Assembly (NCBI GenBank): GCA_026874595.1
Contig: CM049320.1
Coordinates: 41,922,714 to 41,986,713 of the forward strand
Length of the DNA stretch: 64,000 nt
Source: Sipunculus nudus
Lineage: Eukaryota; Annelida; Sipuncula; Golfingiida; Sipunculidae
Reading direction: 5' to 3'
The stretch's first letter is position 1, and each line of letters starts with the position of its first letter. Both the position numbers and the translations under genes were made by a program. Under the pieces are notes generated by a model, which did not search any database, was not told where the DNA came from, and worked only from the letters and a program-made list of their open reading frames with translations. Shown here one piece after another: positions 3,608-60,144 of this stretch.

Positions 3608-3615
3608 GGTGACAC

Positions 3616-5378
3616 CTACAAATATCATAAATCATAGACATACTGCATGTTTGAACTAACAGGCAAAATGAGACAGCAGGACTGTAGATAATGCTACATT
3701 AACTATTCATTCTATTGTGGTACAGGTTAAGTAAACATATTCCATGTGTGTTTCTTGTGTGAATGGAGAATTTCATCCAGATCCCAGACTTTTCCCTGAT
3801 TTGATTGGCTGGTACAAATGTGACATCATGGACTGGATTTAATCAACAACTCAGATCTAGTAATGCATCTTGTTTTTATTCTCTGCTGAACATTTTTGGA
3901 CTGACAGTGGCAGAAATACTGTGCTTTTACTGAGATCTAGAATTTTTAGTCACATTACTGCCGAGTTGAAAGTGCTCATAGATGAGCCAATAGTTTTAGA
4001 ACAAATCACACAACCTCATGTTTTTAAGTGGAAAAAATGTTTTTCCTCCATGAATGGGGCTCATTTTTTAAAGAATCTATATTAATTTTTTTTTTCATAA
4101 CCAATTATGTTATATGATAATATAATGAGATTTGGAATAAGTTTGCTTGACCTACACTAGCATATGACACAATCCAGAGTACCTTAAAATAAGTACCTCT
4201 ACTTCTTAAAATAAGTTGTTCACATATAATTTGTCTCATCCTAAGCCACTTTATTCCAATTCATTCTGCTGCTCTACATCAACATATTGATACTGACCCT
4301 TATGTTAAGGCCGTGTAAGACCCCTTTGAAATTGTATTTAGTGACTTTTAAGGTTGTGTCAACATAACATAATTACCTTTTCATTGCCTCTGGATATTTG
4401 ATGAAACTCCTGATGAAACATAATCTGGCTAACAAACCCTTAATTATGACACATAACTTGTTCTCTTGGTCAAATAAGAAAAAGAAACATATTATCCAGG
4501 TGCAAAGTTAGGAAGTGATCCTGGCAAGTTTCTAACCAGACAAGACGTGTTGCTTTAGGGTAAAGGTAAAAAGGAGCAGCCAGTTTTCAAAGTCCTTCTC
4601 CTGATTGGCTGTTGGGTTTAAGGCTTATTCATCATGGAAATCCAAGCATAAGTTTTACTGCCTGGTCCCTAAAATAGTGCCGTCTAGTGGCTAAAACAGA
4701 AAAATAATGGCTCCAAGCAAGTCTACCAGCACATTTTCTTGTTTTAACTTTTTAGAAATGGTTCACACACCAAGGTAAAAACCCAAGTTTAAGCTAATTA
4801 TATTATCTATCTAAAAATCTGTGTCCTCGATGGCACACCAAAATTTTATAGAGAGTGTTCATTAGCCTCACTGAGAGGCTCAAGAGGCATTCCCATTGCC
4901 ACGAATTGGTCCCCCAATGTGCTAGGAACAGGAAAGATGTCGAAGATTACGAAGTTCCGTGCGATTCTGCCCTGATGAAATGACAGAGAATAAGCCACTA
5001 TGAAGTCAGACAATGCTGTTTCGAGTCAATCATGAAGCAATACGTAGCTACAAAGAATTCGTCATGATAAATCTGCAGTTTGTGCTGTAGGAGCTATTAG
5101 TTACTACTAGTTACAAGGAACCACCGTGCTTCTGCTACAATTAACATAGGCAGTGGATATGATAAGACAAGGTACACATCAGAATGCATTCTTGTGTTTC
5201 ACTAGGAGTCTGATGGGCTTAATAGTGCTATAGACAACTATAAGTTGGGGCGAAGTATTTAAATGAGGAGTGAAAGAGGTTTGCATAACTCAGGGTCAGA
5301 CTCTTGTACTCTTCATGTTATTTTACTGGCAAAATATGGAGGAGCATAAACAGGAGCTGTTATGGCATGGAATCTAGT
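3616..5378. other. Intergenic or VEPH1 upstream region with a dispersed repeat
   Basis: No gene seen. The segment 3780-3990 is homologous to 25420-25620: both carry a block with CTGACAGTG, CAGAAATACT, GAGATCTA and TTTTTAGTCAC in the same order. It is therefore a dispersed repeat, not a gene. Non-coding 5' exons and the promoter of VEPH1 are expected here but cannot be placed. Confidence 0.5.
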
Positions 5379-8030
5379 AAACAAGGGACCCATGGGTCAC
5401 GGCGCTCAGCTGATCGTGATTGGACTATAAATGTTTCTCCACTGTGATACTATATCGAGTCGATAAAGCTTATGAATATCATGGACATGTTGGGCTATTA
5501 TAAAGGAATGTAATGTAATATGTGAGTAAATGATAAATGAAATTACCTGACTGATGGATTAATAGAGTCAAATAAAGTGGTTTATTTTTTATTTATTTAG
5601 GAGGGGTTGAAAATTGTGATATATTTGAGCAAATATGAATGCAATGACAGCAGTAATAAGCAGTAGTAGATGATTAGGCTATTTTTTGAAGGATCTAAAG
5701 TGTATGGTAGTCTGCAAGCGTTCAATTTGACAGATATGATGTTATGATTAACTATGCTGATGAAGTGATTTAAGAATATGTGACTGTATGACACAATATC
5801 TCTTTAGTCTTGACAAGGTACATTATTGTGATGCCCACTATGTCTACATATTACACAATATTGACATAATTTCTGGCATGTACATAGGTACCTATGGACG
5901 AATAGTTATACAAAATATTAAAGTATGAATATATCTGATTCATCTTGTTCTTGCTTACTGAGGCTGACTTTGGGATGGGGTTCGGAGAAGGGAAAAGTGA
6001 GGGCAGCACGAAGGTGGATGTAGAAATATTCTATTGTAATGTTTTTCATTTATATAAGAATATGAGAAGCTAAGAGGAAAGGGGCCCTCCTACTTGGTTA
6101 TAGTAAAGTTCTAAATATATGATTGCAAACTAATACTCTGACAAGACTGTCATGAAGAAAAACCGTAAAAGTTTTGAGATACTGTGTTGCATACGAAAAT
6201 TTACAGATGGACAGGCAAGTGGACAGAATGGACTAATACCTTTATTTCACTTTCAAGAGAATAATGCATTAAAGTTTATATATAATCCTATTTTTTAAGC
6301 AGATCAACTTTTTCCATTAAGAAATTTTTATCTGTATAATTTTTTTATTTACAGGTTTATAAATTTTTAATTAAAAAACCTGAAAATATAAGTTAAAATA
6401 TTAGAATTGTTGCAAAAGTTGCAATCATTATATATACAGAGTAAAAAACATTGGGTCATATTATGCATACACATATATTTTATTATTTTTAAATCATAAA
6501 TGTTTTAACTGATTTTAAAAGAAAATAATGCCACAACATGGCATCTACAAGAATATTCCTTGAATCACTATTAAAAAGTTTTGCATATTGGAGTTTTAAG
6601 GACATGCTTAATTTTATTCACCAAAATAAAATAAAAGTAAATTTGACAAAATAAAACATCTTTTCAAATAAAGTATACACACTGTTGGTTGAATGAAGGA
6701 CAAACAATATCATTGTGCTAATTACTATCCCAGTTTTAATTAATTACTGGAATTAATAGTCAATTTCACACCTGGTGAAGTTTTTACTCTTCTGAAGTAA
6801 GGAATTACTAATCTCATGAACATCCAGACTTTCACAGCAATACACCACTTTGTGGACACAATTAAATGTACACTTTAATCATTGTTACCCTGGTGGTTCA
6901 ATACAAAATCTAAAATGTAGCATGTCCAAGAATAAAATAAAATACAGAAAAATTTTAACATTCATCTAGTTTATGCACCAGCTGGGGGGGGGGGATGAGT
7001 GCAGGGCAAGGGGAAGCCTGCTAGTAGTGGCCAAGCTGGGCCAAGATAAGCTGCCTGGGGTGGGTTACATAATGCAAGTGAAGGCTGTACTACTAGGTGG
7101 GCTAGATGTAAACAACACTTGACATGGTGTGTGAAAACATGAATAAAAGCTATTCATTCCAATCAATTTCCTTTGAAAGTTCAGATTTTAAAAGATTAAA
7201 TCCTTATGCATATATGCTGGGAAAATTAAATCAACAGTGCCAAAGTTGGACAAAATTTAAGGTATTGTTTTTTATTTATGCTAATAACTTGAAAAATTTG
7301 CAATAAAAAAAAAATTCAATAACTAGCCTAATTTTGCAGCCTTTATTTTCAAATTTCAGATTTTAACAGATTAAATCCTTATGTATACATGGTGTGAAAA
7401 TTAAATCCACAGTACTTACAGGAAAAAAACGTGCCATGGCCAAAGTTGGGCAAAATTTAAGGTACAAATTTTATATTTTTGCCAATATTTAAAAAAATTT
7501 AACAGATTTTGATCTAATTTTTGGTATACAATTAAATTTTGATCAATTAAAGTTGTATTACTGAAAAAAAGTCCCTACCTTTAACACTTTTGGTCTTAAG
7601 TGACCAAATATCTTTCCTGATTTTTTTACAAAGTGCATTATGTTTGGGCCCATAACTTTTTTAAATTATATAATACTGACTTAATATCTGGCATGTACAT
7701 AGGAACTATATAGAGGAATATTTATGTAAATATGAAGAAAACCAGATGAGTGGTTTTGATATTAGGCAGTCCTGAAGTGTGAAAATAGATTTCTAATAAA
7801 AACTTGAGGTTTTTCCTTAATATCTCAAAGGAACGAAGTCCTATTGACCCAATTTTTGGCATGGTAGGAGATTATGGGGACATCTAACTGTATGCCGAAA
7901 TTCAGATTCGTAGGTCCAAACGATTTGTAGTGTCGAAACGTGCCAGTCTTACGGACGGACATCCAGACGGACGGACGACGGACAATGGACCATGACTATA
8001 GCTCAGATGACTTATAGTCAGCTGAGCTAA
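5379..8030 (+). mobile_element. Helitron-like non-autonomous repeat, copy A
   Basis: Nearly identical to 43588-46733 over most of its length. The left edge is AAACAAGGGACCCATGGGTC. The right edge is a GACGGACG-rich stretch followed by an imperfect hairpin (arms AGCTCAGATGACT and AGTCAGCTGAGCT) and CTAA, with T as the next base. A 3' hairpin plus CTRR before T is typical of Helitrons. I see no terminal inverted repeat, no target duplication and no long open frame. Against copy B it lacks about 490 bases near 7300, where B has an extra module. Both carry a poly-G run (6984-6993 here). Confidence 0.6.
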
Positions 8031-10904: not shown

Positions 10905-11335
10905 TATGATCTACCGGTAGACATTATTTTGTCATGACGGAGATGTCAGAGATGGGATCTAGACATTATTTTGTCATGGCAAAGATGTCAGAGACATGAT
11001 CTAGACATTATTTTGTCATGGCAGGGATGTCAGAGATATCATCTAGTCATTATTTTGTCATGGCAGCTATGTCAAGATATATGATCTAGACACTATTTTG
11101 TCATGACAGGGATGTCAGAGATATGATCTAGACTTTATTTTGCCATAACAGGGATGTCAGAGATATGATCTAGACATTATTTTGTCATGCCCTGGACGCC
11201 AGAGATATGATCTAGACATTATTTTGTCCTGGCAGGGAGATCATGTCAGAGATATGATCTAGACATTATTTTGTCTTGCAAGGGATGTCAGAGATATGAT
11301 CTAGACATTTTTTCACGACAGGGATGTCTGAGATG
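10905..11335 (+). repeat. 42-bp minisatellite ending at the ZNF511 start codon
   Basis: About ten units of a 42-bp repeat that includes GATCTAGACATTATTTTGTC and GGGATGTCAGAGATATGATC. The period is visible in the ATGTCAGAG positions (11112, 11154, 11243, 11285). Most units carry ATG TCA GAG followed by ATA or ACA and TGA. The last unit is altered to ATG TCT GAG ATG AAG and opens the ZNF511 reading frame. Confidence 0.85.
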
Positions 11336-14400: not shown

Positions 14401-17400
14401 ATTCAAAAGGTGCTTTGAAATATGCATGTTGTTAACAGATAACATTTTCTATTGAATTATGCCAATGGAGGTACCTAAACACATTAGTTTATTTTTTGCA
14501 AGTTTATTGGTTAGTTTAGAAAAGAGTTAAGAAATGTCTCCTTTCAGTTCAGTGGTGATTTGGCCTTGGCCAATGATGTAATGTGCTTTATTCAGACATA
14601 CTGTACATTCCTGTCATCCTGCTAATTGTTCTCCAGATAAGTCGGGAATACTAAGGTTTTAGCAAGGTCCTGCTGCCGCCAAAGGGTTTTCTTGTGAGCA
14701 GGTTAACTCACAAAATACATCATGGATCATTATCAATCTTCACATGTGCATAGGTATGGGTGAGATGATAAAGCCTGTATAAAACAGGGTCATGACTTTG
14801 TATAATCAGTTTATAGTGTCTGTGAAAATCACACAAATTCTTAAATAACTCAAAAAAACATTGCATGGATTGGTTCAAAACTCAGGTTGACCAAAGATCT
14901 TGAATAACTTTACAGTAGTGTCAGCTTTATAAGTTAGCATTCAATCATATTATGCACATCCATAGATATGGGTTATAGGATGAAGTCTATTCATATTGGG
15001 GTCATGACCTTTACTATGAGAGTGGCATTTGAATTTTTCTGTATTTGGTGAAAAACAAACAAAAAGATATTTCTCAAGTGGATGCATGTATTTTTCTTAA
15101 AATCAAAATGTTAGATGGTAAGTTGTGGACAGTGACCTTGACCTTCAGTGTCAAAAATGCCGATATATAGGATTTTTGTGAACCCTGTAACTTTTGAAGT
15201 ACTGCATCATTTTTCTTAAAATTTGACAAACAAATTGTTTTCATGAAAATCTTAGACATGTTTGAAAACTGGTGACATTGACCTCAGTCTTCAAGCTCAA
15301 TGTGTAAATATATAGGATTTGTCTTAACCCCGTAATTTTTTTTAAGTGCATATTTTTTTACAATTTTGATACACAGATTGTTTCCACCAAGTTTTCAGAA
15401 AAGTTTAAACGTTATGACCTTGACCTTGGTCGCCTCGGCCTTATAAAATATCAATGTATGCTTCAGAAGAAAGGGGCTTATTTAAAATGGGTATGCCCTA
15501 ATTGTCTGGGGACACTACGGCATCTCTGATGCCACAATTCTAGTTTCTAACATTATTGGCAAACTACTTCTTCAGAAATGTGACTAAAAGTTGTGAATGT
15601 CAGTCCATAATGTCACAAATCATGTTTTTCAGCTGAACCTCATATCCCATGGGCTGCTTGTTTTGGGATTGAGGGTATCTACTTTAGTTTCATTATATGC
15701 TTTGTTTCAGTATATGTGTTTAGTAGAAGCATGCCAAGAGAAATTCACAACTGCAGGAGATAGAAAAGACCACCTAGTGAAGCAGCATAAATACCCATCA
15801 AGCTTCAGGTTCCACCGATCAACACAAAGTAGGTGAGTAAAGTAGGATGAACAGGTCTTGATGCCACACATAGCTGGTGAATCAATTGTAGTGACTGGGT
15901 CCTGAATCCACATGCAGCTGATGAGGAAAGATTAAACCAGGCCTTATAACTAGTGCCACAGTTTGCAAGAGAGGGAAGTGTGTGGATTGGTTCTTAGTGC
16001 CACACTTGGTGAAAAATCTGTGGATAGGGTCTCATTGCCACACTCAGTGGGTGAATGAAGCCTGTAGACAGGGTCTCAGTGCCACACTCAGTTGGTGAAT
16101 GAAGCCGGCAGTCTTAGTCTTAGTGCCACACTCAGTGGGTGAATGAAGCCTGTGGAGTGGGTCTTAGTGCCACACTAAGTGGGTGAATGAAGCCTGTGGA
16201 CAGGGTCTTAGTGCCACACACAGTGGGTGAATGAAGCCCGTTGACTAGTTTTAGTGTCACATTAAGTGGCCAAATGAAGGCTGTGGCCTGGGACTTGGTG
16301 CCACGCTCAGTGGGTGGGTGAAGTGTGTTGACTGGGTCTCAGTGTCACATGTTAGACTTAAAATTTATCACACAAGATTTGGTGCCTCAAAACTGTACTA
16401 GATATACACTCCTTATCATTATGGCTTGTAATCTTATGGGTCTCCTCACCTGCATAAGCTAGAGTTACACTATTGAGACAAACAAGAATCAAAGAAATAA
16501 CAGTGTTTTGTTTACATTGTGTCGGGTGAGGGTAGTGTCCCTTTAACCCAAAGATGGTGGTCACATGTTTTTTTGCTTTAAAAATGAGTATGCCAAATTT
16601 TAGTAATTGTTAAAAAGAAATGTAAATTTCCAAGTTTGTGGAGGGTTATCTGGTCTGGAGAATGTTTTAGTCATCCTGGTACTTGTTGTTCCCCGCTCCC
16701 TCGGAATCTGGACATTGAATTGGGTTTGTCTGTCAGTCTGTCATGTTTTCATTTCAGTGCGATAACTTTCCTCAGTATTATTTGATTTCATTTAAATTTG
16801 GTCATTGATTGCTCTCATGCATACCTTGGTTGGGATAGGATTTGGAGTGTGTGTCTGAAAAATCTTTCTCACCAGCTCCAAAAATAAAATAAAATTTTGG
16901 TCCCAATTCACACCAAAAATTATGACATGGGCGGTGAAAACTAAAACATGTCCACTATAACATGTGGAGACATCTTCAGGCCAAAAAAAAAAAAACTAAA
17001 ACAGAAATTGAGAAATGAGAAGGTAAGCATGAAAGGCATATGTGGGGGACTTAAATTCCACAAATTTGCTTGTTACAGGTGTAAAACTAAACGAGAGAGG
17101 TTGAGCAAAACCAGCACCATGGAGGTGGACTCTGTGACAGAATCAGCCCCAGCAAGTAGTGTCTCTGACCAAGGAGAAGCCATGCAAACAGACCAGTCCA
17201 ACAAGCCCAGGAAGTTTATATACAAGTAGGTCATCATCCATTATGTCCTGGCCACAGGGTTTTCAATTGGAAAACAAGTGACCAATGGATCATGAAGCTC
17301 AGCTGACTATTTGTGGTTGCCTTTTTATTGGCAAGGGTTTTGATTTCTTAATATTCATGAATGTAACATAATCACGAATATGAAACCATCGGGAATAAGA

Positions 17401-23346: not shown

Positions 23347-26300
23347 CTGGTCAGAAAAGAAAATTTCATTTTCAGCTATACAAGCTTACATACTGTGCAA
23401 CAACTAATTTGTTAACATTCAGTTATATACTATTTAATACTATATTGCATTCTGGTATATGATATTACACACAGTACAAGAGAAAGAAATTCACATTCCA
23501 TCAAACCATGTTACATGTTTGGTAAGCCAGTTTAATCGACCCAAAGGATTTTGTGGGAACCCACATTAAATGACCTGTTTTCAATGATTTGTTAGACTTT
23601 AATGTATTACTGGTGTACACATGGCTTGGTACACATTTTACTATTTTAATTATTATGTCTAAAGAACTGCATGGAAATTAACTTGGCAACATGATCATTC
23701 TTTTACTGAACTGTAAATAAAATACTCAAAAACGTGCCAAGATCATGTAAAACATTACTGGCCATGATGACATTGACCCCATATTTGCCTGATTTCTCTT
23801 AAACCTACCAGCAGGTTCTGATGGTCCAGCACTTATTGTAATCCTGTCTTGTGAGACCAGCAGTCAGAAAGCATGCAGCCATGGGTTGATTTAAGATATT
23901 GTCATAATAATAATAAAACTTGTTTGTAGTGATTATGAATTTTCTTCCAACTGGCAGCAAAAAATATAACTAATTCAGTGGCTGAGAACTATTCCTTAAT
24001 CCCTTCTGCTCGCCAGGTGTCAGGGAGGCACCCTCTAGCACCCACAGATTGTCATAGCTGTGGATTTCAGTGCCACCCCTTAAGGGCATTTTACCGACCC
24101 TTAATTGGTGATAAGCTTAGGGATTGGAATATTTACTTCACCCATCATATCTGTACTCAAATGAAAGAGGAACACCTCAAGAGTTGTTTGATCATGTGAT
24201 CAAAATTCAAACTTGTGCAGTTACTGAGTAAATGTATTTTTATAAAAGTCATGTTTAAATGAATAAAATTGCAAAATTAATCTGAACAGTAGGAGTGTGG
24301 CAATCGGCAGTCTAATCTAAACAGTTTAAAGAGGGTTGAAGCAGATCACCTTGGCCAGTCTATATGCTAATTACTGCAGTGCTTTCTTTCCCGAATACAA
24401 CAAAGAGACTGAAATGTCCACTATTCAGAGATTTTCAACAAATCTTTACAGTCATACACATGTCTTACCTGGAGTAAGCTAGAACTTCTTGAGCAAACTT
24501 GGGTAGTAATGATTCACGTGAATCTTTGTCCACTAGAATAATGATGGCCCTTATCCCCGGGCGCGCCTGTATAACCAGCTGATCAAACGTCTCTGGTGTG
24601 AACTCATGTACATACACTGTAGGTCTGAAAGACAGTAACAACATAATGACACGATAATACAAACAAGAGGACCGCAAACAGGCATAATATTCCCATCTTA
24701 TATCATGTTACCTCTGACCTCATTAAATATGCATGAATTTTGTCAAGAATTAAATTCTGATGAAATACTGTATTGGTTAATATTTATAATATGTTTCATG
24801 AATATCCATCGCTCATCATGGCACCACCAAGGTAAGGTGACCTCTGACCTCATTAAATTTTTTCCATCAGAAAAAATATAGGAATATATAGGAAATTCAG
24901 GATTTGTTGAAAGTCCTGTAATAAAGTTAGAGCAAACCTTACAAAAACAATAAACGTGTATGCAGTCTTAACACACACTGTAAATTTTTTTGTTTAAGCT
25001 GTTCAATCCGTAAACATTACAAATAACAAACTTTGCGATAAGCTTTCACTGAAGTAGTTTTCATATTGCTGAAGTTGTTAAAAAATAAGATGAAGAAATT
25101 GTACTTAATTAATGAACATGGATAACACTGGAACCTCAGCATATCTATAATTATATGCTTTAATTATATGGCATAAACTGTGAACCAGGACAAAAATAAT
25201 GTATCAGGCAATGACAAAATTTTGATTGTGACTTTATGTCATGCTATAATTTGTGGATTTGGGCATGGTCACCACAAAGCATTATTCCACTCAAAAGTCA
25301 GCAAAACATGTCCAACTGCCTCCAAACTCTCTCTGCAGATACAATCCCGCCTGGATGATGTCATCAGAATCATGTTGCATCTTTCATGTTGCATCCTTGT
25401 GCTCTTATCTTCACAATATGATGATATGATTGGCTAGTGCAAAGTGTTATATCACAGGCAACTTTATAAATTAAACCTAGGAATACATATTGTGTTTGTT
25501 CTTCCCTGAAAATTTGGGGCTGACAGTGTCAGAAATACTAAGCTTTTGATGAGATCTACAATTTTTAGTCACAGGGGTTTTCCCTGTGTGTGACATCACT
25601 GCCGAGTTGACATTGCTCAACTAGAATACGGGTAGTCGACAAGCGACTACTTGTATCCGCCTAAATCAGAGTGGAACGGGTGAAGTGTTGCATATTAGCA
25701 TGGATGTCTGCAGCCAAATTGTGTATGTAGGTTGCGCTACCTACGAAAAAATCCAGAAAGCTCTATACACATGCAAAACTTTGGCCCAATCGGTCAAACG
25801 GTTCCCAAGATATGAGCTTGGATATCTGCTGCATAAACTAGAATGCAGGTGGCGCCACCTGTCATAAAATCAAGAGAGCTGTCGGGGATGTATAAACTTG
25901 CAAAATTTTAGGCAGATATGTCAAACCACTGCCGAGATATGAGTGATTTTATCCCATGGCAGACAAACAGATGGGAGCTGTGCAAACATGGCTGCAGGTG
26001 GCGCCACCAGTTTTGCATATGATAAAGAGCTATGTGAGATTTATACACATGCAAAATTTTGGCCCAATCGGTCAAACGGTTCCCTAGATATGAGCTTGGA
26101 TGTCTGCAGCGTAAACTTGATTGTAGGTGGCGCCACCTGTCATAAAATCAGAAAAGCTATCCAGGATGTATAAGCATGCCGAATTTCAGGTGAATTAGTC
26201 AAACCACTGCAGAGATATGAGTGATTTTAACCCAAGGCAGATGAACAGATGGACACTGTGCAAACATGGTTGCAGGTGGTGCCACCATTTTCGGTGTATG

Positions 26301-29300
26301 TTATGAAGCTCTCCAAGGGCTACATTTGTGCAAAAAAATTTTCCTGATCGGTCAAACGGTTCCTGAGATATGAGCTTGGATGTCTGCAGCGTAAACGTGA
26401 ATGTAGGTGGCGCCACCTGTCATAAAATCAGAAAAGCTATCCAGGATGTATACGCATGCCAATTTCAGGTGAATTAGTAAAGTCACTCCAGAGATATGAG
26501 TGATTTTAACCCAAGGCAGACAAACAGATGGTCACTGTGCAAACATGGTTGCAGGTAGCGCCACCATTTTTGGTGTATGTTATAAAGCTCTCCAAGGGCT
26601 ACATTTGTGCAAAAGAATTTTCCTGATCGGTCAAACGGTTCCCGAGATATGAGCTTGGATGTCTGCAGCGTAAATGTGAATGTAGGTGGCGCCACCTGTC
26701 ATAAAATCAGAAAAGCTATCAAGGATGTATACGCATGCCCAATTTCAGGTGAATTAGTCAAGTCACTGCAGAGATATGAGTGATTTTAACCCAAGGCAGA
26801 CGAACAGATGGACACTGTGCAAACATGGTTGCAGGTGGCGCCACCATTTTTGGTGTATGTTATAAAGCTCTCCAAGGGCTACATTTGTGCAAAAGAATCT
26901 TCCTGATCGGTCAAACGGTTCCCGAGATATGAGCTTGGATGTCTGCAGCGTAAACGTGAATGTAGGTGGCGCCACCTGTCATAAAATCAGAAAAGCTATC
27001 CAGGATGTTTACGCATGCCCAATTTCAGGTGAATTAGTCAAGTCACTGCAGAGATATGAGTGATTTTAACCCAAGGCAGACGAACAGATGGACACTGTGC
27101 AAACATGGTTGCAGGTGGCGCCACCATTTTTGGTGTATGTTATAAAGCTCTCCAAGGGCTACATTTGTGCAAAAAAATTTTCCTGATCGGTCAAATGGTT
27201 CCCGAGATATGTGGGTTTATGTGTGGAAACAGACGCACAAACGGACGCAGAGCGCAAAGGATAGGTCAGAGGTCAAAACAAAATCGGGGCGCAGCAGTTC
27301 ACATGTGACCCAAACATAATCCCGGGTTTCGGAAAATTCCGCCCAGCGGTTACAGAGGAGTTCTCCGGACACCTACGCGGCGGCGGCGGCGACGGCGGCG
27401 TGCAGCTGAAAACATAGTATCCGCAAAACTCTGTTTTGGCGGATACAAATATGTGCCAATAGTTTCTGAAAAGATCATTAAGAGGGCTTTATTATATTTG
27501 CCATTCCAATATTGTGAGCTGTTGCAGTATTGGCCTGTTCAATATGCATTGGATATTTAATATATTCATTTTGTATACATATGTTATCTACCATATATAA
27601 TATCATTATACATTATAGATAACATGTACAGCCAGTACAAAGTAAAATGAGTAGTGGAGGAAGCGACATTTAATATTGTGTATGCAGGTGTGTTTTGAAG
27701 TACATCAGGCATTTATGTGGACTGATATGACATACTTCAAGCTGTGATACCATTCATAAAGACTGCACCGCCATGACCATATATCTTGCATCAATATCTC
27801 TGTACACAGCCGACACTCTTGACATTAGGTTACAAATATGAAATGAACACAATTCTCTTAATTCTCAAAAATCCTGAATTAAGAAGGAATCTTTTTCAAA
27901 CATGGTGAAGTATTGTCAGAAAGAAGGTAAATATATTTTGTCGTAAGTCTTGTTCATTATGTGACAAAGTACTTTATATAGACACAATTTAATAAATCCA
28001 ACCTTTCTTGCTGGACTCTTTTTGGTCTGGTAGAGCTTTGTCTTCTGGTTTGTGGGCGGGGCTTATCAGTGCTGTCTACAGATTGGTTCTCCATGTTATT
28101 CAGGGTGGCCATTAGCCAACCAACAACTACCACAAAGAAGACGGACATGATGACGGTGATGACAGTAGTTTCATCAACTCTGTAATACAATCTGACAAAA
28201 TATATGGAATTAGCTTCTTTGCATTAGATAAAATGAATCTTTTCTCAGACTTAACATGAACACAACTTATTTCAAAATCTATGAATCCAATTATAAAATA
28301 TGTATTCATAAGATATACATGTATTTATCCAGATAATGTGAACAAGACACCTTTAAATGGGGACACATTGTCAATTATATGATTTAAATACCACTGTATA
28401 AAATTTGTAGATTTCATGACTCATAAGAAAATAACCAATTTAAAAGCATACATACATATAATGATGTAAAACATCATCAATGAGGTTTTATTCAGGGGGG
28501 GCTAGTGCATCTTGTGAAACAGCTATCAGCTACAGGCTCATCCAATTAACCTGAATACCAGTACCCTAAGTGCTTTTGGTGAAAAAAATGAAGAAATGCT
28601 AAAAAAACTCAAAACAAAATGATCTCAACCAACACAAAAGGATAAATACCTTTTCAATTTCTTTGGACTGAAAAATATTTGAAACCAATTATTTTTTCCA
28701 AATAGTAGTTTCCACCTCTTAATTTTAAACAGGAACAGAATGAGTTTTATACAGGTTTGCGAAGACCCTTTATCTATTGTTTATCCATTCATATGTCTGC
28801 TGATTTTCTAAACAATGCTGGTGGAGAAATATTTTAAAATCCAGATGTAAATAAAGTGATAATATACAAATCAGCAGGCATGTTTCCAGTGTACTTTGCA
28901 TAAAAATGGTACAAAAAACATGAGTTGAAACATGAGAGAAATACAGCTCATATGGTACGTTTGGGAGAAACCTACAAATCTGGACCAAACCAACCTCTAA
29001 ATGAGCAAGAGGTACATATGCATACCTCCTCAAAATACAACTTCACTATTGTAGTCCTACACAAATTATTTCTTTCTGTTCAAACTCTTATTACCTTTTT
29101 CAGGCTCAACTTGAGATTTAAGTTTTTTTTACACAGCAATTGCTGGATACAACTGAAACCTTGAGTAAATTAGTCCATATAAAACTTTCATTTTGTTCTA
29201 AGACATAAATGAATGACACTGTATAACACAAGCATGACTAGAGGACCACAAGAGGGCATGATACTCAATATGTACATCTTCTGACCTCATTAAAACTAAT

Positions 29301-32300: not shown

Positions 32301-34156
32301 TTTTTCTGTACACTAGTCGCAGTATTATGGGTTTTGCTATTTTGACATTTGGGATACTGAAAAAGATAGCAAATTGCTGGTTGAGTTGTATACTCCTAAG
32401 GGAGTTATGGAAAATTACTAAATGAAAACAAAAAAGTCCAGGAAAACTGTAGAGTCAAATCAAACAGACACTGATTGACAATGACAGTTGGTGCATCCCC
32501 TGGGCTTCACTATGTCACACACCTCAAGTGTTTTATTTAATACCCGTATGTCACCTACCTTGAGTGTTTCATCAGTTTCATTGGCTACACCACTCCCCCT
32601 TGTGAACATCTGAACAAAATCTTCCTGTGTGTCCTTGTAGATGTACGTGTACTTGACTCGGTCGTGTATGTCTACATGCTGCTGAGCATATCTACGGAAG
32701 CTTGTGATATAGTCACCATGATGAGCCTTATTCTTAGTCAATAAGACTACGCATATTCTAAAATTACCAGAAAATAATATTTAAGTAAATAAAAAGATCA
32801 CATACAAGGAATACCAAAGACTTACACCATGAGCCAGCACTTCAATGATTCATACATGTATACACCAAACACATACTCATGGTACAGGACAGATGTCACG
32901 TGAAAGTAAAAAGGACACGACTCCCACTCAAACTAACCAAAATCTGGGTAAACCACAGCTAGGGCTAAGGCTTAGCCATTTCAGAGAGTAAACACAGGTC
33001 ATTCACAAGTAACCAATCCTATATATACTGGAATGGTCTGCACTGTATTTAGTGCTAAGCTAAGAGAGATTTTCAGTGATGAAGGCATAGACAGAGAAAA
33101 CAAAACCATTGACCTGTATTGAGAGAAAGTTAGAGAAAAAGAGAAATATTTCACCTGCAATAGGCAATTATGCGAGGGGGATAAAATATTTTAAGTGATA
33201 CAGACATCAATATGCTCCTGCATTAATGAAAAAGATTTCTAAAATATTATATCTGAATAAATTCTTTATTAGAGGTGTGTTTACTTTTTCCTGGCTTTAT
33301 TGGACTGTGTTGGACAGAGATCATTGTAGATTTTTTGTGACGACAACCGAGGCAAGATCAACCATCGATTTGATTCCATCATTTCATCCATTGTACTCCT
33401 AGGTATCTGACGCATCTGAAAGTATGAGCATTTATTTCATGTTATGTACCTTCTATAATACAATGACCTGAACTAAAGAATTAAACCTAAAATATTGATG
33501 AGTAAAATTCAGTCTGAACTTGTACATACTGATGAAAGATCAAGGTACCCACTGGGTTACTGAAACTTATTTGTTGCACAACTTTAAGATATAATGTTTT
33601 TGCTGTTTTGTACGCTGTTTTACTAATATCTCTGACAGAATAAGAATATCTTATCAAGATAACATGACATCTTTACATGTGGAAACATAATGCAAAATTG
33701 CAATTGATTTATTCAAAATATGAAAGAAAAGAAACAATTATCTATATAATTGATAAACAGGCACACCACTAAAAAACAATCTCTTCATTTAATTACATAA
33801 CAAAAACTGGATTTTTATGTACAAACAGCTTGGGTATATATACATTATATGTTAACAGTGTGTACTGAGACCTGCAGTTCTAATAAGACAAGAGTTTTGT
33901 TGACTTACATTGAGATTAGCAGCTGGAGATGTTTGTAGTTCATTGAACATGAGCAGAGTTTCATAATGAGGCTTGATTCCAAAGTTCTGAACAATGGCTG
34001 TGGCTGTGCTCCTGAAAATTTAACATTATTTTACAATATAATAAATCCACAGAGATCTTTTATTCCTCTATAAATGGACAACTATAAAGTTCTGGTGTCA
34101 TACCATGGAGCACTCTAGCAGCTGTTTATTGCAGGACACCAGTAGATTATTTTATA

Positions 34157-34236
<80 letters not shown>

Positions 34237-37200
34237 CATACACATATATAAATTGATGTAACAATTGTAAATTGATGTGATCTGAGAGGTAGTTATTTCC
34301 ATAACTAAAATGCAGATATATCTACTAATTGTAGATAGGATCAAGTGATGACTATGCCAAGTAAGTTACTCACCTGTCTGATCTGACATAACCAGTTTTA
34401 AAGTGGTCTCTGTAAGTTACTCACTTGTCTGATCTGACATAACCAGTTTTAACTTGGTCTCTGTAAGTGTACTCACCTGTCTGATCTGACGTAACCAGTT
34501 TTAACATGGTCTCTGTAAGTGACTCACCTGTCTGATCTGACGTAACCAGTTTTAACATGGTCTCTGTAAGTTACTCACCTGTCTGATCTGACATAACCAG
34601 ATTTAACGTGGTCTCAGTAAGTTACTCACCTGTCTGATCTGACATAACCAGTTTTAACATGGTCCTATGTAAGTTACTCACCTGTCTGATCTGACATAAC
34701 CAGTTTTAACATGGTCTCAGTGAGTTACTCACCTATCTGATCTGACATAACCAGTTTTAACATGGTCTCTGTAAGTTACTCACCTGTCTGATCTGACTTA
34801 ACCAGTTTTAACGTGGTCTCAGTAAGTTACTCACTTGTCTGATCTGACATAACCAGTTTTAACATGGTCTCTGTAAGTTACTCACCTGTCTGATCTAACA
34901 TAACTAGTTTTAACATGGTCTCAGTAAGTTACTCACCTGTCTGATCTGACATAACCAGCTTTAACGCGGTCTCTGTATGCATAAGCCACAGCAAGATACC
35001 GAAGTGGTGGCTCAATTCGACTGTCACACAGCAAGGAACGTGCATAGTTGTCATGCCAACCAGAAAGGAAGCTTTCATAGTTGTCATCTGTTACCTACAA
35101 AAATAATATAAATACACAATGAAAAAAGTTGGTATGGAACACTGAAAGGTCCTCTGTGTTTCATTATAATTTGAAGATACAAATCTTAAATTCAGTCCAT
35201 TTATAGTAACATGACTTTTTTACTGTTCTTAATTCCCTGTAGCTTTTCTTCCCATTAATTTGTGTAATTAAATTTAAATGCATATCCAAATGAACAGACT
35301 ATCAACTGACCTTTAGAGAAAAATAAATCATAACTATATAACATTGATTATTTTCATAGAGGTCATTTTTGCTCTCAAATGCCTTGCATTTACCTACAAA
35401 TCTGAGATTATCAACAACAGTTGTTATCTCTATTCCGGAGTACAGACAAAGCCTCCCCCCCCATCCAAGTAGGACTTTTGTTCTACACCTCTTTACGCCA
35501 GCTGTTGTCTTCATACCAGTAATTATCTATTTGACTGCTCTTACATACACAATTGCTTTTATCTTCACACTAGCAGTTAAATTACATCTGTTATTTACAG
35601 TACACATTAACTTTTATTATATTCATGCTAGCTACAGGCCTGTAAAACACACAATTCTTATTTAATGTTCTTTCTTGTTTGCGTTACAGCTCCTTAGTTG
35701 GAGAGTTCACCCTCTAAAGCTGTGGTCAGATCTGACCACAGTGGTTCAGACCATGATATACAGCATTCAGCTTCAGGACATGCATCAACTCCCTACAAAT
35801 TGTGCTTAACACAGTTGTGTTGATTTAGTTGAGATATAAATTGAAAATTTATGTTCAGTATGTTAGAAAATTTTGACACTTTCTCTGAAAAAAACCCCAG
35901 ATAATTGATACCTCCATCAGCTCTTGTTTACAGCCTGGCAAGGCATGCTGTGAAGGCCTGGGAGGGTCTATTCTTGGCTGATCCCATTAGGTCTATGAAG
36001 GACCCACCATCTATTGGGTATTATTAGGTAATTTGCATGAGATTTGGGGCTTTGACGAATCAAAGGGGAAACTCACCCCCACAGGTGTTCTGACTCCGTT
36101 CATAAATGGTGGCTGAATGGTTTGCTACATTCATCCCTGAGGGTATCTACACATCAGCTGCTGTCTTTATTTATCATAAACGCATCTGTTGTGTTCATAC
36201 CTGTTTGACCAGATCTTTTGGAAATAAGTTGCGAATGAAGCCTCTGAGGTGGTTGACACTGATTGGACCATTGTAATGCTTGGCTCGGCCGTTGATGATG
36301 GCAATGAACGCAGGAACCATGTGAATCTTCAGCTTGGCATTCAACATGTGATCCATGTTGCCATGGACAGTGCCAATCCCCATTCCTGAAATCAGACAAA
36401 TTACTTGTCCTTTTAAAGTTCTAAACCATTGTTGTGACTGGCACAAACTGATTAACTAATCATTGAATTTGAAGTCAAAATATATCCTTTTTGATTACAG
36501 TAGAATGTCAGTGATCCAAAAAGCTCTGGGGACGGGTTTTGTCCGGATAAACGATTGTTGTGGAAAATTATTTCACATGACCCACCTTGATTTCCAACCT
36601 GTTGCTGAGCACTGGACTAGATCAGTTACCAACACACATAAATTAATTAAGCTAGTCCAAAGAAAATGTTTGCAACAGCATTTTTGTTGTTTCAATTATT
36701 TTAATTAATTTTCATGTAAAATGCAGTGCTATTATTGCTAATTTGGCCCAAGAAAAACAGAATCAGTCAATAGTGACTGTCTTCATGTTCCCTGACTTGA
36801 ACTCAAATGACCAGCCATGACCTAAAGTGTGCTGCCATCTCTCAGTGGACAGATTCACTGCCTTATATTGAATGACCTTCCAAGTGAGATTACATGAAGA
36901 ACCCAAAAGTAAATATAAATGTTTTAAATACAAAAATCATTTACAGAAGCACACAATCTTTGAGACAAGTCTGTCTGGCAACTTTGACTTAAAATTTGAA
37001 GTTTGTGGCAATGTCGCTGACTGTGGATCTTCTGACGCTTAATTCCCTGGGGAGGCAAATGACGTAAGGATCTACAGCTTGTAATCAAGTGGTCTGGGCT
37101 CTCACTTATGTAACTACATTAGTCAGTTATAAATAACAACAATGAAACATCAGAGTAAAATCAGATGAGCAGTAATTTGTCACCATACCCTAAGTTATAG

Positions 37201-49200: not shown

Positions 49201-52200
49201 TATACATATGTATCTGCACATTGATATTTACAAGCAATTTTATATGGCAAGTCACAAGTCAAAGGGTAAAAAAGTTATTAAAGAAATCATTTAAGTTTTA
49301 ATATCATCTGCACTTATATATCAAAATTTCACATGATTAACATATGTACAGTATTACAATGGCATAAAGTCTAGGGACATTATTCAACAGTATGTACATA
49401 TAATCAAATAAAAATCATAACTGGGAAACAAAAACATCACAGATGTGTACTAATAGTCTAACAATTCAAAGAAACTGTGCTGTTTGCAGCATTATGACCC
49501 TCAGACATGCAGTGTAATACTATCCAGTGACGAGAACTGTAAATCTCAATGAGAATGCAAATATTTATGTCTCCCCCCCATGAGGGGAGACAAACAATGA
49601 TTGGTCTGTCATCATTAGTGTCAGGCAGTCATCATCTGTGTCATTTTTTTTGTGAACGAGATAAGTTTTGAATGACTCAACAGTTTCTCATGAAAGTTGA
49701 AATTTATTTTGTTTCTACCAATATCTCAGAAAAACAGTTAAAAAACTGGTGACCTTGACCTTCAACATCAAGGTCAAATAGGCCTAAATAGCATTTTTTT
49801 GGTGAACCCTATGACTTTTTCCTCAAACCTGAAATGTTCATCAATTGTTTCAACCAAGTTTATTTTACGACTTTGAATATTGGTGACCTTGAATTGAATC
49901 TCTGAGGTCAAATCAGCTGGAACAGAATTTATTTGTGAAAGCTTTAACTTTTGAACCACTCAGTATATTTTCATGAAATTTGATTCGTGAAATGTTTCTA
50001 CCAAATTCTTGAAAGTGTTAAAAACGGAAACCTTGCACTTCATCTTCAAGAGAAATTGTAAGTGAATGCTTTTGAATATATCTTGGCATGACCCTATCAG
50101 TACTAATGAGCAGCCCATCAGTGTCACCCTGGTAGCATCAGGGTCAAAGTATAATGATGCTGCCAGATGTCTTGACAGCGGCAGATTTGAATTGACCAGT
50201 GAGCTGGACACATCAACTGACCAGCATGCTGTATACATGTGTTTACTGAATACACCAAAGTCTCTACCACTTGAGGACTTATTGTTTGTATTTAACTAAT
50301 TTCCCCACACAAGATCCTGTGAGCCCTACAACAGAAGTCTGAATACACCAAAGTCTCTACCACTTGAGGACTTATTGTTTGTATTTAACTAATTTCCCCA
50401 CACAAGATCCCGAGAGCACTACAACAGAATTCTGAATACACCAAAGTCTCTACCACTTGAGGACTTGTTGTTTGTATTTTACTAATTTCCCCACACAAGA
50501 TCCCGAGAGTGCTACAACAGAAGTCTGTATTTTCAAATTTGGGGATGGGAGGCCCATAGGGAGGGGAGATATGTATATGTTTTGCAATGCAAAAACAACC
50601 TCATTCTAGTTTTCCCCTTCTGACAAATGCTCATGGCCTACAAGTATGTTGTCACTGAAAATTAACCAGACCAACTGCTTGATATGTTAGTGTGCTTTCT
50701 AACACCTATCACAAGCATAAAAGGATTCTATTGTAAAACCCCCAAAAAATTAAGTTTATGTTTCTGAGGCATTTTTGGAGAGGTGATGTGGACGGGCAAC
50801 TTGATATTGATTTTTGCACCAGTGAATATTATTGTTACCTACACACTGAAATATAAACGACAACTAGATGTGGTCGGACATGGTCCTCAGAGGGCCCCGT
50901 GTTTCTGCAAGTACTGGATTAGTTTACATGTGGCTGAAAAATTAAGTTAAATTTGAAAAAATATGACAAACAGAAACAGGTTTTTATCCATATGCATGAG
51001 GGAAAAATTTCTACTGGATCAAATGATATAAAAGAAGATATTTCTGAAATAATGTGTGCAATAGAAAATCAACGAATGTAATCTGTTAGCCATATTTGAT
51101 TTTGAGCCAGTCTGTAACTCAATAGGTCTAGAGCCCTCATAGGGACCAAAGATCGCTTTGAAATAGGGAAAGCTGCAGAAGGTTGTTGTGGAGTTATTGC
51201 GTGCGAAAGATAATCAGAGATTGGGCTGTGACAGCCATATTGGAATTCCATCAAGTCTGTAATTCAATAGGTCTGGAGCCCTTGTAGGTACAAATCATCC
51301 CTGTGAATTTGGGAAAGCTGCAGTATGTTGTTGCTGAGTTACTGCGCGCGAAAGAAAATCAGTGATTGGGCTTTGGCGGCTATATTGGAATTCCTACAAG
51401 TCTGTAATTCTATAGGCCTGGAGCCCTCATAGGTACCAATCAACCCTGTGATTTTGGGAAGCTGCAGTATGTTGTTCATGAGTTATCACTCGCAAAAGAA
51501 AATCAGCGATTGGGCTGTGGTGGCCATATTGGAATTTCGACAAGTCTGTAATTTGATAGGTCTGGAGCCCTCAGAAGTACCAATCATCCCTGTTAATTTG
51601 GGAAAGCTACATTATGTTGATGTTTAGTTAAAGCGCACGAAAGAAAATCAGTGTTTGGGCTGTGGTGGCCATATTGGAATTCCGACAAGTCTGTAATTTG
51701 ATAGGTCTAGAGTCCTCATAGGTACCAAACCTCCCTGTGAATTTGGGAAAGCTGCAATATGTTGTTGCTGAGTTATCGCACGCGAAAGAAAATCAGTGAT
51801 TGGGCTGTGACGGCTATATTGGAATTTTGACAAATCTGTAATTTGATAGGTCAGGAGCCCTAATAGGTACCAATCAAACCTGTGAGTTTGGGAAAGCTGC
51901 AGTATGTTGTTGTTGAGTTATCATGCGCAAGAAAAAAATCAGCGATTCGGCTGTGGCGGCCATATTGGAATTCCGACAAGTCTGTAATTTGATAGGTCTA
52001 GAGCCCTCATAGGTACCAATAACCCCTGTGAATTTGGGAAAGCTTCAGGATGTTGTTGTTGAGTTAATGCGCACAAAAGAAAATTAGCAATTGGGCTGTG
52101 GCGGCCATATTTGAATTCCGACAAGTCTGTAATTCAATAGGTCTGGAGCCCTCATATGTGCCAATCATCCTTGTGAATTTAGAAAAGCTGCAGGATGTTG

Positions 52201-53939
52201 TTGTCGAGTAATCGCTCTCGAAAGAAAACCAGAAATTGGGCTGTGGCAGCAATATTGTAATTCCGACAAGTTTGTAATTTGAGAGGTCTTTAGCCCTCAT
52301 AGGTGCCAATCATCCCTGTGAATTTAGAAAAGCTGCATTATGTTGTTGTTGAGTTATCGCACGCGAAAAAGAAAATCATCGATCAGGCTGTGGCGGCCAT
52401 ATTTGAATTCCGACAAGTCTGAAATTCGACAGGTCTGGAGCCCTCATAGGTATCAATCATCCCTGTGAATTTGGGAAAGCTGCAATTGTTGAGTTATCGC
52501 ACAAGTGTCACTGACGGAAGGACGGATGGAGGGAAGGACGGACTGACACGGTGATCACTATAGGGCACCCGCTTGTCAAGCGGGGCCCTAACTAAACAGG
52601 GTTTGCATTTGACCCAGGTAAAACCCATTTTACCAAGCCCAGTCCAAAGTGTGTAAAACCTGGGTTGAAAGTATTTAGCCATATTTAAGATTTTTAACCA
52701 TGTATTCAGTTTATTACCCAAGCTTTTCCCCATGTTTATCTGCTTTTATCACCTCCCAAGAGCTATGAATGTGCAAAATTTTAGGTTGATATGTTTAACC
52801 ACTCCTGGTATACTGGTATGAGCACATGTGATTTTCAACAAAATTAGATTTGTGCAAGACTAGTCTGTGTGGAAGAGTATCCAATTAATATGTGCTACTG
52901 TAGTTACAGTTGGCTTACAACAAAGAGATGAAGGTCATACACAAGCAATCGTGTGAATCTCAAAATCTTTTGAGGGATGGCAGTATTAAACTACATAAAT
53001 ATAGGGGTGTGTTTATGGGGGCTTTCTCATTGATCATGGTAAGAACACACTAATGTTGCTTGAAAGGTTATCTTCAAAAAGAACATGGATACCAGTCACT
53101 CCATCACCCCAGTAAAGTTAGCACAGAGTTGCTAACAGATCAGGGTTGTTAAGTTTTCCCAGTGCGGTATTTTCCAGCTGGTAAATACCGATATTTACTG
53201 CCTTTGGAAAAACCTCTCAAAGTAGGAAAATGGGAAAAACTGGGAAAAACCTCTAATAATCTAATAAAAGGAGAGACCAGCAGATATCTGAATGAAAAGG
53301 AAATATCATCTCACACACATACATATATATTTAAACAAACATACTCAAATCACAAAACCAAGATATGAAAATTTATATTTTTTTCCTTAAAAACAGCTTG
53401 TTTTTATGTATATACAGAATATATACACAGAAACCTGCATCATGCTGGACAGGGTTTCCCCAAGTGATGCCACAATGGGTGGTTGGTTTCTTCTCACCCT
53501 AGCTAAGTTGTATGAGCCCTACATGACTAGCATGGCTCCCTTACGAAATGACAAGCAAGATTTATGCCAGATTTATGCCAGAAATTATGAAGGAAATTAT
53601 GCCAGATCTTGCTTAAATTTTATGCAAGATTTATGTCAGAAATAGAGGCGAATTATGTAAATGAGCTTAAGCAAGATCTTGCTTAATACAAAATCTTGCT
53701 TAAATATTTAAGCAAGAAAAGGTCATTAAGCAAGATTTATGTCAGAAATAGAGGCAAATTATTTAAATGAGCTTATTTTCTTCACACTTCAGTACCCCAA
53801 GATTAATTGGCCTTGATTAAGTTAACATGCTTGATCACTTTTGTCAGCTCCCCTACTAAAGTTTATGTTGCAGTTAATTGGTAATTAAGTAATAGTAATG
53901 CACTAGTATGAGTTGTGGAAATATTGCAAACACACACAC

Positions 53940-57430: not shown

Positions 57431-58013
57431 TCCCCATGCAAGCCGTGCTATATGCACAGTCTCTATTTTTAACTGGTATGAATGTCATATTTCTGGCATC
57501 AGTTTTCCACAAACCAAACATATAGGCATTTGGCTGAATTTTGTTTTCCTTTCTTAATCACAGACAACAATAAGCTGTTCACTTAACACTATCAGACCAA
57601 GTAAAGAGTTTTCGAATGAACATATATGCCAACTGACAAAATGGGTAAAATTTTATCAGACTGATGAAGATAAAACAAATATTTCAAAATCATTAGAACA
57701 AATAGAATGTGCATTATTTTTTCAACACATTTAATGAAACCTTAGAAGCATATCCGGACAAAGCAAGTGAGGCATTGGTTAGTATTTATCAAAATATATC
57801 CTCCAGAAATAAACAAAACGTCCGAGACAGCATTAAACTAAAACAACCAAAATGGTGGGACAAAGAGTGTGAATTTTGGAAAAATGAAAACTATTTAGCT
57901 CTGAATAAGTATAGATGTATATTATCAGATGCCGACTTAGGTATTTATCAACAAACAAAACGGAGGTTTAAAAAGTTATGTGAAGAAAGAAGGCAACCAT
58001 CCAAGCATCAGAG

Positions 58014-59135
58014 GTGCAAAAGGTGATAGGTGCAAAAGACACTGATTCCATGTGGAAAAACATGAGATTTTTAAATAAAAAGAAAATTGTTACAACTGTA
58101 GTACCGGTACGTTGGTACAAACATTTTAAGGAACTTTTGAATTCATCAAAGCGTGAAATTAATCAAGAGTTTAAGAATCATACTCTGGAATATCTAAAAA
58201 ATGTATTAGAAATTGAAAATGATACAGAGCTTGATGGACTCATAACAACATGTGAAGTACAGAAAGCCATAAATGAAATGAAAAGAGGAAAGGCCCCAGG
58301 GCCTGACGGGATAACGGTAGATATTTTGAAAGATACATATAGTTATATGTCGTCTCATATATTACAATTATTTAATAGTATATTAGGAAATGGAGTTTTC
58401 CCATCCTCTTGGAGCAAAGCAATTCACAAAAAGGGTTCCACCACTGATCCTAAAAATTATAGAGGTATTTCATTACTTAATACCATGGGTAAACTATTTA
58501 CAAAAATATTGGCAAATAGAATTCAAAATTATGTTGATCAAGCTGGATTATTATGTGAAGCACAAGCTGGCTATAGGTAAGGTTATTCAACGGTAGACCA
58601 TACATTTTCTTTAAAGGGGTGTGTGCAGAAATATTTAACAAAAAAGAAAAGAAGGTTTTATTGCACTTTTATTGATTTTTCGACTGCTTTTGACAGTGTA
58701 CAACATGATTTATTGTGGTATGTATTAGTTAAATCTGGGATAAAAGGGAAACTCTTACAGATACTTCAGTCAATGTATAGTCAAATGAAATCATGTCATC
58801 TTACAGAGGAAGGTATAACAGATTATTTTGAATGTACTAACGGAACTAGACAAGGGTGCATGGTGAGTCCTCTTCTGTTTTCTTTATTCATAAATGAATT
58901 TTATAAACAAATTGATAAAACATATTGTCATGGTATAAATATTGATGAATATTTGCCAAACTTAATGACATTAATGTACGCTGATGATTTAGTATGCTTC
59001 AGTGATACAATAGGACGTCTCCAAGAACAAATCAACCAGTTGCAAGTTTTTTCAGTCAATTATGGCTTAAAAGTTAATTTAGGAAAGACAAAAATTATGG
59101 TTTTTAGACAAGGGGGTTCATTTAAAAGAATATAG
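58014..59135 (+). pseudogene. LINE reverse transcriptase core, one frame interrupted by a stop
   Basis: The frame at 58014-58580 continues in register at 58623-59135 after a single TAA, so the RT core is otherwise intact from fingers to thumb. Catalytic Asp residues are present in motif A (FIDFSTAFD) and in YADD. Confidence 0.85.
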
Positions 59136-59457
59136 AAATGGCATTATCAAACTACTCAAATTGAAACGGTAAATGACTATAGATACTTAGGGGTAATATT
59201 TACAAGTACATTGTCATGGTATAAAACAAAGAAAGCGCAGGCAATGCAGGCTGAAAAAGCAGTGACTTTTTTAGGAAATATAGTTGTATAACAATAAGCC
59301 AGCTATTTTATCTATTTGATTGTATGGTTACACCGGTATTGTTATATGGTTCAGAACTGTGGGGCTATGAAAGATGTGAAATAATTGAAAAGGTGCAGTT
59401 TAAATTCTGCAAGTATACATTCTAAAAATTAGCTCTTCAGCTCCGAACGCAGCATCA

Positions 59458-60144
59458 TTGGGAGAGCTTGGAAGGCATCCAATGTATGTTGGTCAGTTAT
59501 TAAGATGTGTAAAATATTGGACAAAATTAGTACATTATGGGAATAATATATATCCAAAACGTATATATAATATGCTATTTAATCTAGACATGAATGGAAA
59601 ACAAACACGGGTTACTCATATAAGAAGCATAATATGCAGCGCAGGTTTTGGGTATGTGTGGATGAATCAAGAAGTAGGAGACATTGGAATATTTTTGGCT
59701 AAAATAAAGGAAAGAATTATTGATATGGCAGTACAAAACTGGTCCTGTGATGTAGAATTAAATACCAAATTAAATTTATATGGTACTTTTAAATCTATGC
59801 TCTCAATGGAGAAATATTTACTGTGTGTGACTAATACCAAGCATAAACAAGCGCTAGCTATATTGAGATGTTCATGCCATGATTTGATGATTGAAAAGGG
59901 AAGGTATACGCAAATGGATAGAGAAGAAAGAATATGCAAGTTTTGTGTTAACCATGGTTTTAACTTAATAGAGGATGAGTTCCATTTTGTACACGAATGT
60001 TTGTTATATAATGATTTGAGGAAGAAATATTTGAGAAAGAACCTACATGCACCAAACAAGGAAAATTTTATTAGAGTTTTTAACTTGAGTGAAGAGAAAG
60101 AAATAATCAGATTTGCAGCATATGTATATCATGGTTTTAAATAA
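59458..60144 (+). pseudogene. LINE C-terminal region
   Basis: 228 codons after the RT, beginning GELGRHPMYVGQLLRCVKYW and ending with the CKFC...HEC knuckle. Typical for the region after the RT in CR1/Jockey-like ORF2. The stop TAA at 60142-60144 appears to be the natural end. Confidence 0.8.

Follow-up and report, generated by a model that had tools for sequence, protein, structure and literature searches.

A minisatellite repeats an exon end and its 5′ splice site twelve times in a DNAJC16-like gene of Sipunculus nudus

Results

Gene context and structure of the array

We analyzed a window of 64,000 nucleotides, i.e., the whole stretch of S. nudus DNA presented above; coordinates are window positions unless a contig handle is given. 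Upstream of the array and on the same strand, two exons contain the halves of a DnaJ domain (E 4.6e-8 and 2.9e-7) and one exon gave a weak thioredoxin match (E 0.0033). We take the host gene to be DNAJC16-like from its similarity to the human protein, a name that fits the DnaJ and thioredoxin exons. Pfam found nothing in the array-bearing exon itself, and the window as a whole gave no match to Rfam families (gathering threshold) or tRNAs.

The end of the array-bearing exon is the first unit of a minus-strand minisatellite of 12 head-to-tail units (Table 1). Units are 51 bp long except for two of 52 bp, units 6 and 10, which contain an extra single base, and unit 1 is the real exon end. TRF described the array with a period of 51, a score of 1048 and 92% matches, and a four-unit period of 205 scored 1090. 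All 12 units retain GTGAGT and 10 of them have AG before it, the preceding triplet being CAG in nine units, TAG in one and CAA in two. This agrees with the first-pass annotation, which had described twelve tandem 5′ splice sites from an amplified exon end and donor, with GTGAGT in all copies and the AG in ten; sequence and TRF both give the 12 units. Its span of 34361–34975 was right at the start and one base off at 34975, as unit 1 begins at 34974; the TRF end at 34977 takes in a TAC common to both edges. In the intron (34936–34012, 925 bp), array copies take up 576 bp. They are not identical (26 minority cells in the 12 × 51 unit alignment), and the whole 617-bp array had one match in the genome, in a search whose counts are minimum values for repeats.

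Table 1. Features of the array and its flanking exons (window coordinates; a slash marks the exon–intron edge).
Feature	Position	Strand	Remarks
Coding exon, 158 nt	34937..35094	-	AG before it; ends in phase 2 at ...GAC AG/; open frame ...GYVRSD
12-unit minisatellite, 51–52 bp units	34361..34974	-	per unit, 38 bases like the coding exon end + 13 bases like the intron start
First donor CAG/GTGAGT, presumably used	34931..34936	-	U1 duplex −14.3 kcal/mol; sole open join among 12
Eleven further GTGAGT donors	34368..34890	-	stretch that contains them
First bases of the later donors	34885, 34834, 34783, 34732, 34681, 34629, 34578, 34527, 34476, 34424, 34373	-	
TAC directly 5′ of unit 1, candidate exon-side microhomology	34975..34977	-	sequence
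TAC ending unit 12, beside TTGGC, candidate intron-side microhomology	34361..34363	-	sequence
TA dinucleotide run	34153..34250	.	same intron, 110 bp downstream of the array
Next coding exon, 103 nt	33909..34011	-	TTTTCAG before, GTAAGT after

Reading frame, U1 pairing and RNA folding

When the first donor is joined to the next coding exon, the frame stays open. Read-through to any later donor meets a stop at the same codon (AGG TGA) in 11 of 11 cases, and the first-pass annotation was thus correct that any later donor adds an immediate TGA. We hence conclude that the protein needs the first donor. Nine of the 12 donors, the first included, pair with U1 at −12.7 to −14.3 kcal/mol and the TAG donor at −12.5 kcal/mol, and the two CAA donors (34834, 34424) are weak (−7.7 kcal/mol). 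At least 42 matches to U1 genes were found in the genome, and the two that we read begin with ATACTTACCTG, the 5′ end that matches the donors. All U1 matches listed lie on C6 in two clusters (G000:C6:50256640-50368881 and C6:88238231-88297588), within which they are mostly 2.8–2.9 kb apart.

Where 5′ splice sites are duplicated, the intron-proximal site is often favored; this would predict use of the later donors and speaks against a reading in which the first is used. The open frame and the gapless exon joins at two sister loci (see below) nevertheless suggest that protein is made from the 5′-most donor, which marks the true exon end.

The array folds more stably than shuffled sequences (z = −5.6, 20 shuffles), and within any single unit the donor pairs with CTTAC at −2.6 to −5.5 kcal/mol. 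The arms of this fold, donor GTGAG and the CTTAC just downstream, are found in every unit (34361–34936). A T-to-C change in unit 5 replaces a G-U pair by G-C. Unit 9 has its substitution, and unit 10 its insertion, between the two arms. As a repeated self-complementary unit folds by itself, we drew no function from the fold. It could still influence splicing, and we counted this against a neutral reading of the array. We also considered a micro-exon of 36 nt bounded by TTACAG and set it aside, as no polypyrimidine tract was seen.

Donor arrays elsewhere in the genome

A search of the 1.43-Gb genome for three CAGGTRAGT words at 29–59-bp spacing gave 968 matches. The 100 matches listed form 21 loci, delimited by eye, over about 302 Mb, i.e., about 100 loci by extrapolation. 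We examined 24 donor arrays, namely these 21 loci and three picked from the single-word list. At nine of the 24 (seven among the 21, two among the three), the frame into the first donor has recognizable protein homology: TPR (L034), SRPK (L035), a PH-like domain (L041, weak, E 0.0015), MRP/ABCC (L043), HADH (L045), leucine-rich repeats (L050), TOM20 (L051), XPD (L055) and a Kunitz domain (L056). Pfam was run with one frame each at 21 of the 24 loci, L048, L049 and L053 being without a frame of 25 codons; seven of the 24 were compared with PDB, among which L047 had no match. The lack of an assignment for the remaining 15 loci is no evidence against their being exons.

The alignment reaches the last codon before the first donor for SRPK, MRP/ABCC, TOM20, XPD and the weak PH match, and ends two codons short of it for HADH. 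For two of the nine homology loci, SRPK and MRP/ABCC, we attempted to connect the first donor with the next exon found downstream of the array. In both, the joined product gave a gapless match, to SRPK2 (4.7e-41) and to MRP1 (3.7e-35), over proper acceptors (...TTCTGCAG/ and ...TTTTCAG/). From these joins, the 5′-most donor would therefore make the protein at both loci. Visual inspection showed a plausible next exon at L034 and at L041. Over 20 loci, the longest frame running open into the first donor had a median of 45 codons compared with 26 at 505 AGGT sites of the window (p = 8e-5), where the first donor was relaxed for L039 and L040 and the background is one window; with the exact donor word throughout, the median was 42.5 codons (p = 0.002).

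The arrays thus sit in unrelated genes, with periods that are multiples of three or not. The HADH-like locus (G000:C2:37215500-37225400, array 2509–7843) comprises about 100 units, each 53 bp long, and 66 exact CAGGTRAGT words lie in its one intron. In the ABCC/MRP-like locus (G000:C2:8509600-8517200, array 2987–4718), the units are 42 bp long and the first units shown stay in frame over 40 residues; judging from this sequence, use of later donors could lengthen the protein by 14-residue repeats and not end it with a stop. The SRPK-like locus (G000:C1:4428600-4435600), a splicing kinase gene that itself carries a donor array, has a spacing of about 115 bp. The first-pass annotation stated that minisatellites rarely span an exon–intron edge with the donor preserved in every unit; such rarity does not hold for this genome, given nine of 24 loci and the precedents in amphioxus and human IFI6 (see Discussion).

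Arrays at donors compared with permuted words

The donor word CAGGTRAGT at first looked enriched, with 968 triples compared with 296 for the reversed 9-mer. Expressed per single copy, it forms triples at 3.67% and five permuted 9-mers at 1.52, 3.61, 4.75, 0.62 and 0.28%, where two of the five, one containing a CpG, served only as reversed controls. Among the matches listed, we delimited by eye 21 loci in about 302 Mb for the donor, four in 76 Mb for TGARTGGAC and 11 in 212 Mb for GTCAGARTG; AGCTGRTAG has 20 loci in the whole genome (all 99 matches listed). In the order donor, TGARTGGAC, GTCAGARTG and AGCTGRTAG, this corresponds to 0.070, 0.052, 0.052 and 0.014 loci per Mb, the donor being the highest of the four, and to 0.38, 0.38, 0.29 and 0.13 loci per 100 single copies. 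The donor word lies at the upper end of the controls and not outside their range. An acceptor-like word, TTTTNCAGG, gave 623 triples compared with 908 for its reversal, both as raw counts.

Special targeting of donors is thus without support, as permuted 9-mers form arrays about as readily per single copy. With the array left out, 43 of 22,689 9-mers of the window with 4–5 G+C form triples (0.19%); with it, the share is 0.56%. This baseline lies below the donor rate, and arrays may therefore be modestly enriched at donors.

The genome is rich in minisatellites: TRF found ten arrays in the window with units of at least 30 bp and at least 2.5 copies. Other tandem arrays in the window lie at 25789–27211 (280-bp units), 51109–52491 (145-bp units), 10918–11334 (42-bp units) and 15981–16349 (44-bp units), and open frames at 57984–60144 resemble, by eye, a non-LTR retrotransposon reverse transcriptase. 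Some of the minisatellites in this genome land on exon ends and are tolerated there.

Conservation of the donors within arrays

With 14 of the 51 unit columns variable, a given 6-mer escapes change with P = 0.13. Under independence of the units, the P for an intact donor in all 12 is 0.044, a value that overstates the evidence because the units share ancestry. Elsewhere in the unit, the invariant run AGATCAGA (8 bases) is longer than GTGAGT. We also scored the donor window in seven arrays, i.e., L034, L041, L043, L045, L050, L051 and the DNAJC16-like array, and it lay at 0.36–0.79 of the distribution of all 9-base unit windows, in a sample that was found via intact donors and so leans towards conservation. 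Of the 100 units of L045 the scoring followed 28, and of the 42 of L043 it followed 30; the L043 donor straddles the unit edge, which voids its GTRAGT count. The homology loci L035, L055 and L056 lie outside it. Selection on the donors was hence set aside as an explanation, neither columns nor windows indicating clear excess conservation, and the preservation of the donor in every unit, which had been singled out in the first-pass annotation, carries no clear sign of selection.

Discussion

Origin of the array

The breaks of the repeat lie at CATAC/AGAGACC in the exon and at CTTAC/TTGGC in the intron; the unit spans from break to break, with TAC common to both. The sequence shows a 51-bp tandem duplication that happened to straddle the exon–intron edge, and the common TAC may have guided this duplication. 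The first copy would have been produced by a single duplication via slippage or microhomology-mediated repair, and later units probably by unequal exchange, until the array had grown, as its units attest, to 12, eleven of them inside the intron. Alternating variants suggest growth in blocks of several units. At two positions of its exon part, unit 1 is set apart from all eleven later units; this would be expected of a coding copy that selection maintains outside the homogenized array. The 5′-most donor would be used and the other eleven removed with the intron; any transcripts spliced at a later donor would meet the immediate stop and be expected to decay. The later donors would be intact as young copies and not as selected ones, in line with the lack of clear excess conservation.

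Weighing of the explanations

We therefore propose that the array is, very probably, a neutral minisatellite of the type termed mirage in amphioxus, spliced at the first donor, whose extra donors leave with the intron. Besides the fold and the intron-proximal preference, four points weigh against this proposal: the use of two downstream units in IFI6, the P of 0.044 under independence of the units, the locus density of the donor word, which is the highest of the four words, and the far lower triple rate of the window's own 9-mers. Among the options that the first-pass annotation had listed, i.e., a U1 sponge, skipping to later donors or neutrality, the neutral one fits best. If instead the later donors acted as a poison, they would divert a share of transcripts to the TGA and decay, and array length would tune the output of the gene. 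In favor of this, U1 pairing of eight of the 11 later donors lies between −12.7 and −14.3 kcal/mol, compared with −14.3 kcal/mol for the first, a ninth pairs at −12.5 kcal/mol, the two U1 genes read have the matching 5′ end and all 11 later donors lead to the identical early stop; in IFI6, moreover, two downstream units are used (PMC4526556). We nevertheless regard such regulation as unlikely: there is no clear selection on the donors, HADH, TOM20, XPD and other unrelated genes contain similar arrays, whether or not the period is a multiple of three, and amphioxus mirages reportedly leave regular splicing undisturbed (PMC3087553, PMC3902484).

The same absence of clear selection on the sites weighs against a reservoir function, where extra donors would bind U1 snRNP and aid exon definition or block premature intronic polyadenylation. 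Although 10 of the 12 donors, at −12.5 kcal/mol or better, are packed within 564 bp, arrays of the donor word are per single copy about as frequent as those at some permuted words, and we consider this role very improbable. Equally improbable is an assembly artefact, of the whole array or of its copy number. Tandem arrays are prone to misassembly, but the units differ from each other in the 26 minority cells, the 617-bp array has a single genome match and many comparable arrays are present in the genome.

Significance of the class

Taken alone, the array of the DNAJC16-like gene is a curiosity with good precedents; it is of interest mainly because such arrays seem to be very numerous in the genome. 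By the exact 9-mer, there might be about a hundred donor arrays, some with dozens of donors, in which the 5′-most copy is read throughout, a generalization that we put forward tentatively. If true, this would be a natural, genome-wide experiment with a strong polarity among identical 5′ splice sites, contrary to the intron-proximal preference of duplicated-site reporters. The class makes the choice among identical splice sites answerable by ordinary RNA-seq in many unrelated genes. It offers introns with 3 to 66 exact donor words and periods that are multiples of three or not, and some of its arrays add a stop at once.

Comparison with known systems

Among the matches listed in our searches of open-licence papers, we recognized neither another donor array nor a census of such arrays across a genome. 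In human IFI6 (6-16, G1P3), a minisatellite is said to provide multiple splice donors, going by the title of Turri et al. 1995, and the DNAJC16-like array resembles it in this supply of donors. The IFI6 unit is 12 bp long and keeps the reading frame, in contrast to the 51-bp array unit with its immediate TGA; frame-keeping by later donors is absent from the array, where 11 of 11 give immediate stops. Two downstream repeat units of IFI6 serve as donors and three mRNAs result (PMC4526556).

Minisatellites (internal tandem repeats) at exon–intron boundaries that bear on splicing are also known from human segmental-duplication genes, where they are said to form novel introns in recent paralogs (PMC2812944); the array differs from these in that it lengthens an existing intron from its 5′ edge. 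Intron gain via tandem duplication that copies splice signals is described for ATP2A1 and potato RdRp (PMC4974935). The array likewise copies splice signals, with no new intron evident. Worm intron minisatellites have been linked to multiple alternative splicing (PMC4039745).

The closest likeness is to the mirages of amphioxus, exon-edge minisatellites that are described from Adh3, with units of 10–72 bp, from the globins BflGb6 and BflGb9 and from troponin C, and in imperfect form from PGBD5; they are said to leave regular splicing undisturbed, and length or somatic instability is reported for some (PMC3087553, PMC3902484). Both they and our array consist of tandem units across an exon–intron edge, with splice signals repeated beside the authentic edge; they differ in the host gene. 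Its units span the exon–intron boundary and many of them contain splice signals, so that at this level the array has the structural features of a mirage. It is a real and clear example of a kind already described.
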